Source of the DNA: Thermanaerothrix daxensis
GTDB taxonomy: Bacteria > Chloroflexota > Anaerolineae > Anaerolineales > Anaerolineaceae
Assembly: GCF_001306145.1 (NCBI RefSeq)
Contig: NZ_LGKO01000006.1
Span: 124,001-188,000 of the forward strand
Direction: 5' to 3'
DNA: 64,000 bases
Within the stretch, counting starts at the first letter, position 1; every line of letters begins with the position of its first letter. The notes beneath the pieces are model-generated. The model saw only the letters and a list, made by a program, of their open reading frames with translations, searched no databases and was not told where the DNA came from. Of this stretch, positions 9,275-11,662 are shown in pieces. A program made the position numbers and the translations under genes.

Positions 9275-9280
9275 TACAAT
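9275..9280 (+). promoter_or_regulatory. -10 box upstream of fluoride riboswitch 1
   Basis: TACAAT placed so that transcription would begin near 9287, only about four bases before the aptamer. The -35 region is weak (about 9252-9257). Confidence 0.5.
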
Positions 9281-9290
9281 GGATCTCGCT

Positions 9291-9339
9291 GGCGATGAGG
9301 CTCGCCTGAAACCGTCGGTTCACGACTGATAGCCTCTGC
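9291..9339 (+). ncRNA. Fluoride riboswitch aptamer (crcB motif), copy 1
   Basis: The sequence follows the crcB/fluoride consensus closely. A GGCG/CGCC stem (9291-9294 with 9303-9306) encloses loop ATGAGGCT. Next come the linker TGAAAC and a GTCG/CGAC hairpin with loop GTTCA. Then TGAT leads into AGCCTCT. GAGGC of the first loop can pair with the distal GCCTC to form the family's pseudoknot. The order and spacing match the Thermotoga petrophila aptamer as I remember it. The distal GCCTCT is also the 5' arm of the terminator that follows, giving a simple ON switch: fluoride binding holds the strand and prevents termination. Confidence 0.9.
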
Positions 9340-9368
9340 CCCTGAATCCTCAGGTCGGTAGAGGCTTT
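9332..9368 (+). terminator. Riboswitch-controlled terminator, copy 1
   Basis: GCCTCT (9332-9337) pairs with AGAGGC (9360-9365), followed inward by CC/GG and CCTGA/TCAGG around loop ATCC. The T run is short (TTT), so termination may be partial. Its 5' arm overlaps the aptamer pseudoknot strand, making the two structures mutually exclusive. Confidence 0.75.
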
Positions 9369-9392
9369 GTGCTTAAGAGAGTGGAGAGGTCC

Positions 9393-10145
9393 ATGTCGTT
9401 TCTGAGCGCTGTTTTCGACCTGAAAACCCTGTTAAATCAGCCGGGGTGCCCCGTTTGTAAAATCTACGATCGGGCGGCCTGGCGCTACGTGGAGAGCCTG
9501 CACTGGGAGAATATTAACGACCCGGCCACCCGTCAAACGTTTCTGGCCGCCTGGGGCTACTGCCCGGCCCATACGCGCCTGGTGGCGCAGGTAGAGCAGG
9601 CCATGTTCAACGACTGGTTGGGCACCAATATCCTGTATGAATCGCTCAGCCTGTATGTGCGCCAGGAACTCGCGCGGGTCCTGGAACACCTCCCGCGCCT
9701 CGAGCGACCACGCGGGCGTCTGGTGCGCTTTTTACGACGCTTGCGCACCCCCCGGCGGAGTCCTGCTTCTCCACCTGCCTGCCCCATCTGCACCACGGCT
9801 GAATCGAGCGCCCGCAACGCCCTGGCCGGGCTGTTGGAGGCGTTGGAGCACCAGGCCGAGGACTGGCAACCGCTTTACCGAGAATCGGACGGACTGTGTT
9901 TACGCCATTTGCGGCTGGCGCTGACCCTGGCAGAGACCTACCCCCAGGCGGTGAGGTTTGTGCTCCAAACGCGCCTGGCCCGGTTGGATGCCCAGATCGC
10001 CGCCATGGGCGAGTACATCCGCAAACATGCCTGGGAGTACCGCAATGAGCCGATGAGCGAGGCCGAACAGCGCGCCTGGCAGGAAAATCTGGCTTTTTTC
10101 AGCGGGTACGCTCCCTCGGACCTGCTCCATCGAAAGCCCGGTTAG
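9393..10145 (+). CDS. DUF6062-type Cys/His protein under fluoride riboswitch control
   Basis: A 250-residue soluble protein, probably of the DUF6062 family, with no known function. It has two equivalent metal-site-like modules: C19PVC22 with C57PAH60, and C130PIC133 with C169LRH172. These look like an internally duplicated CxxC...CxxH zinc or iron site. The linker around residues 100-128 is very rich in Arg and Pro. No signal peptide or membrane segment is seen. The start at 9393 has GGAGAGG just upstream; a GTG at 9369 lies next to the terminator and is less likely. The fluoride riboswitch in its leader implies expression when fluoride is high. It converges with the second fluoride-controlled gene, 25 bp apart. 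Confidence 0.8.
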   Translation: MSFLSAVFDLKTLLNQPGCPVCKIYDRAAWRYVESLHWENINDPATRQTFLAAWGYCPAHTRLVAQVEQAMFNDWLGTNILYESLSLYVRQELARVLEHLPRLERPRGRLVRFLRRLRTPRRSPASPPACPICTTAESSARNALAGLLEALEHQAEDWQPLYRESDGLCLRHLRLALTLAETYPQAVRFVLQTRLARLDAQIAAMGEYIRKHAWEYRNEPMSEAEQRAWQENLAFFSGYAPSDLLHRKPG

Positions 10146-10170
10146 AGCGGCGCGGCGGGCAGGCGCCGAA

Positions 10171-11445
10171 TCAGCCGCGCGCTTCTTGCCCGGTGTGTTC
10201 CTCCGCCTCCCGGCTTTCCAGAACGGCGCGCACAAGGGACATCCGGGTGACCACCCCCACGATCTGCCCCTCGCGGAGGACCGGCAGGGGGTGCTTCCCG
10301 CTGTTGATCATGATTTCGGCAGCTTTCAGCACGGGGGTTTCTTCGGTGACGTAGAGCAGTTGTGAGTTCATCAGGTGCTCTACCCGGCTGGTCTCCCAGG
10401 TGCGGCGGAATTGAGTCAGGGCGCGCTGTTCGGGAACCATCATCTCGGCCACGCCGGCCCGCAGGACGGATTCCTGGGCGCCCATGCCCACCCCCCACAG
10501 CCCCATGCCCACCGCCGCGCTGACCGTGCCGCCCAAAAAAACCAGCGGGGCGAAGAAAGCGGTGAGGGCGGCCGCCAGGACCATGGTGACCCGGCCGAGG
10601 CGGTCGAAAAGGCGGCCAAAGAGCGGTGCCGCCAGGGCATCTACCCCCGTGGCAAGGGCGTAAAAGACGGGCACCAGGGTGGCCGGGACGACGGCGGCTT
10701 TCTGGAAATGGTAGGCGATGAGGGGAAAATCGGCAAAGCCGGTGGCGATGCCACCTGCAGCGAGCACGTAGATCCAGAAGGTACGGTCGAAGCCACCGAA
10801 CCGCAGGGTTGGGGATGGGGTTTCCAGCGCCCGGGGGTTGGGGTAGAGCCGGCGTGCCACCAGGAGCACGCTGAGCGCCAGCAGGGCCGGCAGGGTCAAA
10901 ATGGCATAGCCGTGGCGGTAGTTCCCCTGCCAGGCCAGGACGCCCGCCACCACCAGCGGCCCTAGGATGGCACCGATCTGGTCCAGGGCTTCGTGCAGGC
11001 CGAAGCCCCACCCGTGTCCCATCGGCTGGGTGGCAAAGGAGAGCATGGTATCGCGCGGCGGCACACGGATGCCCTTGCCGATGCGCTCGCTGATCCTCAA
11101 CAGGGCGGCAACGCCCCAGTGGCCGCTCAAGGCCAGGAGCGGCACGCTCAGCCGGTTGAGGGCATACCCGATGAGCGTGATCAGCCAGTAGCGCCGGGTG
11201 CGCTGGCCCAGGTAGCCCGAAACCAGACGCAGCCCATACCCCACCGGTTCGCCCACTCCGGAAACTACCCCCACGGTGAGGCCGCTGGCTCCCAGCAATG
11301 CCGGGAAGGGCCCATTGATGCTACGCGCTCCCTCATAGGTCATATCGGCCAGCAAACTAACGCCCCCCAGCAGCAAGACAAAGCGCAGTGCCAGCGCGGA
11401 AGTCAGGCTTTGCGACGCTTGGGCTGAAGCCGAGAGCGGTGTCAT
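10171..11445 (-). CDS. MFS permease fused to a C-terminal CBS-like segment, fluoride riboswitch controlled
   Basis: A 424-residue protein. The first ~340 residues are a major-facilitator permease. Near the N-terminus: LLADMTYEGARSINGPFPALL; loop 4-5 region: ISERIGKGIRVPPRDTMLS; then GWGFGLHEALDQIGAILGPL; later GRLFDRLGRVTMV. After MGAQESVLRAGVAEMMVPEQRA the expected last transmembrane helices are missing. Instead TWETSRVEHLMNSQLLYVTE to VGVVTRMSLVRAVLE reads as one CBS motif. The start at 11445 has TTTGGAGG seven bases upstream. A fluoride riboswitch with a strong terminator lies in the leader. Fluoride or another halide/acid export is a plausible role, but transport specificity is not visible in sequence. 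Confidence 0.85.
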   Translation of the reverse strand: MTPLSASAQASQSLTSALALRFVLLLGGVSLLADMTYEGARSINGPFPALLGASGLTVGVVSGVGEPVGYGLRLVSGYLGQRTRRYWLITLIGYALNRLSVPLLALSGHWGVAALLRISERIGKGIRVPPRDTMLSFATQPMGHGWGFGLHEALDQIGAILGPLVVAGVLAWQGNYRHGYAILTLPALLALSVLLVARRLYPNPRALETPSPTLRFGGFDRTFWIYVLAAGGIATGFADFPLIAYHFQKAAVVPATLVPVFYALATGVDALAAPLFGRLFDRLGRVTMVLAAALTAFFAPLVFLGGTVSAAVGMGLWGVGMGAQESVLRAGVAEMMVPEQRALTQFRRTWETSRVEHLMNSQLLYVTEETPVLKAAEIMINSGKHPLPVLREGQIVGVVTRMSLVRAVLESREAEEHTGQEARG

Positions 11446-11469
11446 GGGAACCTCCAAATTCGAAGCCAA

Positions 11470-11503
11470 TAAAAAAGGCCTCTACCGTGGAATGGGTAGA
11501 GGC
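11470..11503 (-). terminator. Riboswitch-controlled intrinsic terminator, copy 2
   Basis: On the minus strand GCCTCTACC (11503-11495) pairs perfectly with GGTAGAGGC (11486-11478) around a seven-base loop, followed by CTTTTTTATT. This is a textbook intrinsic terminator. The 5' arm is the distal pseudoknot strand of the aptamer, so fluoride binding should allow read-through into the MFS-CBS gene. Confidence 0.88.
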
Positions 11504-11557
11504 TATCATCGGTCATTCCGAATTTGTGATGCTTCGTGCGGGGCGGGCCTCATCGCC
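11498..11557 (-). ncRNA. Fluoride riboswitch aptamer (crcB motif), copy 2
   Basis: On the minus strand from 11557: GGCG, loop ATGAGGCC, CGCC; then a long linker of about 20 bases ending CACAAAT; a TCGG/CCGA hairpin with loop AATGA; TGAT; and AGCCTCTACC. GAGGC of the loop pairs with the distal GCCTC. Core features equal copy 1, but the linker between the first stem and the second hairpin is longer, an insertion in a usually short region. A TATTAT at 11591-11586 (minus) would start transcription about 20 bases upstream. Confidence 0.86.
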
Positions 11558-11662
11558 TCCGCGTCAGAGTGTTGAGGATAGAAGCATAATACTCTTCCCG
11601 GCCGGCTTTGGGGAGGGGCAGGTTTCGGCCAGAACACGCCTGCGTGCCGGCGCAGAATCGCG

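Follow-up and report, generated by a model that had tools for sequence, protein, structure and literature searches.

Two facing fluoride riboswitches head a candidate fluoride-resistance locus with a DUF6062 protein and an MFS transporter in Thermanaerothrix daxensis

INTRODUCTION

How does a bacterium handle fluoride when it carries several fluoride riboswitches and no match to either known kind of fluoride exporter? The question is raised by a locus of Thermanaerothrix daxensis (Chloroflexota; Anaerolineae), found in a stretch of 64,000 nucleotides (nt) of contig NZ_LGKO01000006.1 (positions 124,001 to 188,000). We call this whole stretch the window, and positions below are counted from its first letter unless a locus is named. 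Here, two fluoride riboswitches face each other and precede two convergent genes, one for a DUF6062 protein and one for a transporter of the major facilitator superfamily (MFS). The locus is likely a fluoride-induced resistance locus, and our best reading is that it is a pared-down copy of a widespread, larger fluoride-induced island whose other members are partly known. The riboswitch class and several of the island genes have been described before; what appears to be new, from the comparison of sequences, is the recurrence of one MFS family and of DUF6062 in that regulon.

RESULTS

Fluoride aptamers and their terminators

Each leader consists of an aptamer and a terminator that overlap, as follows.

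9282..9345, + strand: fluoride riboswitch aptamer 1, P1-P2-pseudoknot core 9291-9338 (RF01734 and lineage model R1)
9331..9373, + strand: terminator hairpin of site 1, overlapping the pseudoknot strand (from the sequence; fold -24.2 kcal/mol)
11490..11566, - strand: fluoride riboswitch aptamer 2, a variant with an insert between P1 and P2, core 11557-11496 (R1 model)
11471..11503, - strand: intrinsic terminator of site 2, overlapping the aptamer 2 pseudoknot strand (9-bp stem followed by CTTTTTT; fold -16.7 kcal/mol)

RF01734 was the sole RNA family above threshold in the 64-kb window (cmscan). A preliminary description of this DNA had named two crcB-motif aptamers, and the Rfam model accepts the first (39.1 bits against a gathering score of 34, E 2e-08) but not the second (22.7 bits, E 0.0045 in 5 kb). 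The low score of aptamer 2 goes with an insert of 13 nt that separates P1 from P2, and inserted forms like it precede the MFS gene in relatives. We also scored both sites with a lineage covariance model, R1, built from 40 aptamers of relatives. With the window sequences excluded from its training set, which includes one orthologue of each site from the sister species G001, R1 gave aptamer 1 61.7 bits (E 6e-16) and aptamer 2 42.0 bits (E 2.8e-10), while the next-best match in the window reached only 10.3 bits. Both leaders are kept at the same positions in G001. Given the lineage-model score and the conserved G001 copy, we dropped the Rfam cutoff alone as a verdict on site 2.

All three helices form at both sites (P1, P2 and the loop/distal pseudoknot, with strands GAGGC.../...GCCTC). 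The distal pseudoknot strand is also the 5' arm of the terminator, as the preliminary description had noted, i.e., each expression platform is exclusive with its pseudoknot. The terminator of site 1 has a weak U tract, TTTGTGCTT, and that of site 2 a strong one, CTTTTTT. Across the 40 relatives, 99% of the cells in P1, P2 and the pseudoknot are paired, with 86 double-sided changes against 22.8 in shuffles, in a set for which P1 and pseudoknot pairing was used in selecting members and P2 pairing was not. As judged from sequence and covariation, both fluoride aptamers are real. A consensus scan found no sigma-70 promoters before the two leaders.

In riboswitches of the crcB class, fluoride with Mg2+ locks the pseudoknot, the terminator is blocked, and the gene is on. 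The window sites share the P1, P2, loop/distal pseudoknot and overlapping terminator of this ON-switch layout; site 2 differs in its 13-nt insert and sub-cutoff Rfam score, and the genes controlled in the window are DUF6062 and this MFS family. By analogy, fluoride with Mg2+ would lock the pseudoknot at each site, so that the terminator could not form and the downstream gene would be switched on. Such fluoride-ON switching of each leader is very likely.

The two genes

The aptamers and terminators would head two convergent transcripts, which carry the following features.

9393..10145, + strand: DUF6062 protein, 250 amino acids (aa), ATG at 9393 (PF19538, 43.2 bits, cutoff 27)
10146..10170, no strand: gap of 25 nt between the convergent stop codons (from the sequence; G001 has enolase and two further genes there)
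10171..10416, - strand: C-terminal part of a fusion protein, the second of two CBS domains in a protein once encoded separately (CBS, 43.3 bits)
10417..11445, - strand: MFS transporter part of the fusion, residues 1-343 of about 395, without transmembrane helices 11 and 12 (TM11-12) (MFS_1, 61.6 bits)

The stops end at 10145 (+) and 10171 (-), exactly 25 nt apart, as the preliminary description stated. It had also called the first protein DUF6062-like, an assignment that the Pfam score (43 bits) bears out. Pfam gives this family no function, and we report a link to fluoride for it here. The gene has a Shine-Dalgarno sequence, GGAGAGG, ahead of its ATG, and the protein has two C-x2-C...C-x2-H modules (C19 C22 C57 H60 and C130 C133 C169 H172), which are invariant among 10 aligned DUF6062 members (alignment A4). 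The predicted fold is all-helical; a fold search of the PDB gave no match below E 1.6, and sequence searches gave no convincing solved structural relatives. DUF6062 is, judging by its motifs, probably a zinc-binding protein, and it may act as a cytoplasmic accessory.

The facing reading frame runs from an ATG at 11445 to a stop ending at 10171 (-). Its MFS part is well above the MFS_1 cutoff of 33.4 bits, and its best Foldseek matches are MFS proteins (E about 1e-7); the MFS profile found no solved structural relative by sequence at E 0.01. The window locus itself was found to hold no enolase, CrcB, NhaP, UspA or MutS-like genes.

MFS and DUF6062 genes in other fluoride loci

We surveyed 80 loci of this MFS family from many phyla, taking one genome per species. 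A pattern scan detected 31 aptamers, spread over 22 of the 80 loci, against 0.4 expected in shuffled sequence (626 kb); one of these, at L203, sits inside the MFS gene and is likely false. The same scan found no fluoride riboswitch in 21 control loci of other MFS subfamilies, and neither did a repeat with the covariance model. With R1 at E <1e-4, a riboswitch is present in 25/80 loci, a figure that counts aptamers rather than tests them, since some were in R1. In ten loci the aptamer lies directly before the MFS gene, and riboswitch-led MFS genes include those of an archaeon and a spirochaete. Known fluoride genes, counted as enolase, CrcB, NhaP, MutS-like, DUF190 and phosphoglycerate mutase, are found no more than 1.5 kb from the MFS gene at 25/80 loci and at 0/21 controls. 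The fluoride-linked relatives come from Chloroflexota, Deltaproteobacteria, Bacillota, Omnitrophota and archaea, and in a quick tree they do not form one clade but are scattered over the whole family.

An even sample of 396 Anaerolineae genomes has the MFS family in 53 and DUF6062 in 158. In this class, a fluoride riboswitch was found at 11 of the 29 MFS loci scanned. One of these, L258, carries a riboswitch, then CrcB, then the MFS; in several others the riboswitch lies equally far away, with gene order read in L258 only. For DUF6062 it was found at 12/40 loci scanned, mostly directly upstream, which is not an unbiased rate because these loci were mostly those of the best-scoring members. DUF6062 stands beside the MFS gene or within a few kb of it in the window, G001, L139, L182, L199, L144, L165, L170 and L192, and at least ten genomes of the Anaerolineae have the two genes no more than 5 kb apart (G000, G070, G083, G090, G136, G180, G246, G297, G332 and G351). 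In the Omnitrophota locus L182, a riboswitch is followed by phosphoglycerate mutase, DUF6062, MFS and enolase.

Riboswitches and exporters in the whole genome

The window genome (G000; 3.01 Mb, 97% complete, six contigs) has exactly four fluoride riboswitches by R1, two of them in the window. The third (L010) precedes genes for a 161-aa protein and a second DUF6062, which is behind a riboswitch in both G000 and G001. The fourth (L009) precedes two MutS-like ATPases, a gene type already tied to the motif (PMC2864571). The preliminary description had found neither a crcB nor a CLC gene nearby, and this holds for the whole genome: G000 has no match to CrcB/Fluc (PF02537) or CLC (PF00654), in searches that were positive in 10/14 and 12/14 control genomes, respectively. 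The sister species G001 has no match to either family. Such absence is not rare in the order, where 27/61 relatives, several of them >95% complete, are without a CrcB or CLC match, far above the <15% of bacteria in general quoted as exporter-less (PMC11139923).

Comparison with the sister species

In G001, one arm of the locus consists of a riboswitch followed by an MFS gene (405-aa reading frame), a two-CBS protein (148 aa), enolase and a 207-aa protein, and the facing arm of a riboswitch, DUF6062 and a 146-aa protein. The MFS part of the window protein is 73% identical to the intact G001 MFS over 340 aa, and its CBS tail matches residues 68-143 of the G001 CBS protein (148 aa) at 63% identity. 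Relative to G001, the window lacks about 365 nt that encode TM11-12 and the first CBS domain, along with enolase and two small genes between the arms; the only enolase found in G000 lies at another site and shares 66% identity with the operon copy of G001. The window MFS thus falls short of twelve helices, while the G001 protein keeps the segment, its twelve helices being inferred from length and family (hydropathy count 8 against 10). A deletion would have taken out the operon enolase and left the MFS, shortened by its two final helices, fused to one half of the neighbouring CBS protein.

The preliminary description had read the gene as an MFS-CBS permease: both domains are there, but the protein is a truncated deletion fusion. 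We rejected the idea of a designed MFS-CBS sensor-permease, given that the MFS and CBS genes of G001 are separate and that alignment A3 contains no other fused MFS. A second MFS-CBS pairing was seen in G012 (L095:646-694 +), where a riboswitch precedes a two-CBS protein and an MFS of a different subfamily (27% identity).

Between the congeneric genomes, proteins of the locus (L087/L088/L089 versus window/L010/L090) show 73% identity, whereas 5/6 other gene pairs are 87-91% identical; the sixth, at 61%, is also a fluoride-operon gene. This suggests that the fluoride loci evolve fast or were exchanged.

DISCUSSION

The preliminary description proposed a dedicated fluoride-stress module, and the comparisons above strongly support it: both riboswitches are kept in G001, DUF6062 and the MFS recur with each other and with known fluoride genes, and riboswitches lead many MFS and DUF6062 genes of other families and phyla. 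The roles it suggested for the two proteins, an exporter and a metal-binding protective protein, are conjectural. The two genes would belong to a multi-phylum module with enolase, CrcB, NhaP/UspA, MutS-like ATPases and phosphoglycerate mutase. Parts of such modules are known. Overlap with terminators and an association with mutS-type genes were already noted in 2010, when the crcB motif was reported (PMC2864571). Among known riboswitch-controlled genes is that of enolase, a classic target of fluoride, and the Enterobacter cloacae FRM fluoride-resistance operon has the order ppaC-uspA-eno-gpmA-crcB (PMC5533749). Relatives of the window locus share riboswitch control, enolase, phosphoglycerate mutase and UspA with that operon. 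In contrast, no MFS or DUF6062 is named there, and the window locus has lost its enolase in a genome without a CrcB match. A 2024 review gives Fluc and CLC-F as the two kinds of bacterial fluoride exporter and mentions neither MFS nor DUF proteins (PMC11139923). Our literature search found no paper naming DUF6062 and none tying MFS or DUF6062 to fluoride riboswitches, with an earlier MFS mention possible in the original 2012 gene list; the sole paper found with both "fluoride riboswitch" and "MFS" was a CRISPR-diagnostics review.

Is the locus still working in T. daxensis itself? The chances seem evenly balanced that it is a decaying remnant in which the fused MFS-CBS protein does not work and only the DUF6062 arm acts, an explanation that is compatible with the locus being a reduced copy of a fluoride-induced island. 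The losses of TM11-12, the first CBS domain and the operon enolase all point this way, as do the low divergence of other gene pairs compared with the locus proteins and the branch of the window MFS in a quick tree, which is 2.6 times as long as that of its sister (0.42 versus 0.16). In the AlphaFold model, likewise, confidence is good in the MFS core up to about residue 345 and low in the tail. However, the fused gene is in frame without an internal stop, its riboswitch and ribosome-binding site are intact, and it keeps 116/121 conserved columns, which is inside the family range. The dN/dS of about 0.15 for the part shared with G001 also speaks against decay, indicating an old history of purifying selection. 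Without TM11-12, the window MFS may not work as an exporter in T. daxensis, and we consider it slightly more probable that the transporter of this genome is impaired than that it is sound.

What would the intact MFS do? Under the island reading, it may be an H+-coupled exporter that removes either fluoride or a solute accumulating during fluoride stress. The MFS fold and the place beside CrcB, NhaP and enolase fit either exported substrate, and the data do not choose between them. A proton-coupled fluoride exporter is a tentative proposal that falls somewhat short of an even chance. Like Fluc/CrcB and CLC-F, the window MFS is a membrane protein under a fluoride riboswitch and may do the same job with a different fold. 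Export of a different solute, one that accumulates in fluoride-stressed cells, is possible, too, but we would not call it probable. More broadly, the MFS might carry no fluoride at all and instead move a solute changed by the block of enolase or pyrophosphatase (phosphoglycerate or an organic acid), or aid pH balance as NhaP does, an alternative to which we give a minority share of our confidence. In its favour, the MFS neighbours enolase, phosphoglycerate mutase and NhaP, and the fold is common to transporters of organic anions and many other solutes. On the other hand, the genus of the window has a riboswitch-led MFS and no Fluc or CLC, precisely where an exporter would be expected.

Several observations weigh against a simple exporter role or a general fluoride link. 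The MFS lies beside CrcB in L134, L136, L139 and L258 and hence is no mere stand-in exporter; with CrcB present, the need for another way out for fluoride is not evident. Three relatives with neither Fluc nor CLC (G026, G027 and G006) have riboswitches, none of which was found on this MFS; the MFS is therefore not a general answer to a missing exporter. In Brocadia, Legionella, chlamydiae and most cyanobacteria, no fluoride link of the MFS was found within the 4 kb examined, and our controls are few (21 loci, each with flanks of 1.5 kb). The idea of the MFS as a plain Fluc substitute is weakened by its sharing of loci with CrcB and by the absence of a riboswitch-led copy among those found in the other exporter-less relatives. 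It is rather unlikely, in our view, that the MFS is a third prokaryotic class of fluoride exporter, riboswitch-induced in bacteria and archaea, with DUF6062 as its zinc-site partner and replacing Fluc/CLC-F in the genus of the window.

Could the fusion be an assembly or consensus error, with the organism having the ordinary two genes? The fusion is seen in one genome only, but the join is clean and in frame, and a single join error would not explain the locus, since enolase and two further inter-arm genes are missing too; we regard such an error as improbable. That the aptamers are chance look-alikes or dead relics without a role for either gene is scarcely credible: site 2 is under the Rfam cutoff, but its placement is conserved in G001, the chance expectation is 0.4 matches per 626 kb, and there are dozens of parallel cases at other MFS and DUF6062 loci.

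The surveyed loci hold further genes. An MFS paralogue on contig C5 of G000 (L090:2441-4236), about 46% identical, has no riboswitch and follows a gene that we take to be ChrB-like; similar genes occur in L158, L164 and L188. The MFS family may also carry other substrates, possibly oxyanions. A gene for a dynamin-like GTPase (Dynamin_N, about 100 bits) follows a riboswitch and precedes the MFS gene in Desulfomonile and other Deltaproteobacteria, as well as in Clostridia, and a prenyltransferase-type alpha-alpha toroid protein lies between riboswitch and MFS in Methanoperedens and Syntrophaceae (L154:313-1140, L160:3192-4001). Two small families recur between riboswitch and enolase in Anaerolineae, one with the motif NPxQRR...FEKxLR (140-170 aa) and one with GWEExxGLRxxLGAGLGYL (130-185 aa); the members tested matched no Pfam family. 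The loci are as follows.

L168:220-2088, L173:1954-3924, L197:269-2089, L207:191-2044: dynamin-like GTPase genes
L010:5135-5620 (-), L088, L094, L096, L098, L105, L133, L139: loci of the two small families

Four fluoride riboswitches in a genome with no Fluc or CLC match are a gap in the two-exporter picture of bacterial fluoride resistance. Because the MFS and DUF6062 recur in the fluoride-resistance clusters of many microbes, the pair can be put to the test as a new part of fluoride defence. If tests of export or of metal binding prove positive, they would extend our view of how cells handle fluoride, which is now important for organofluorine degradation.

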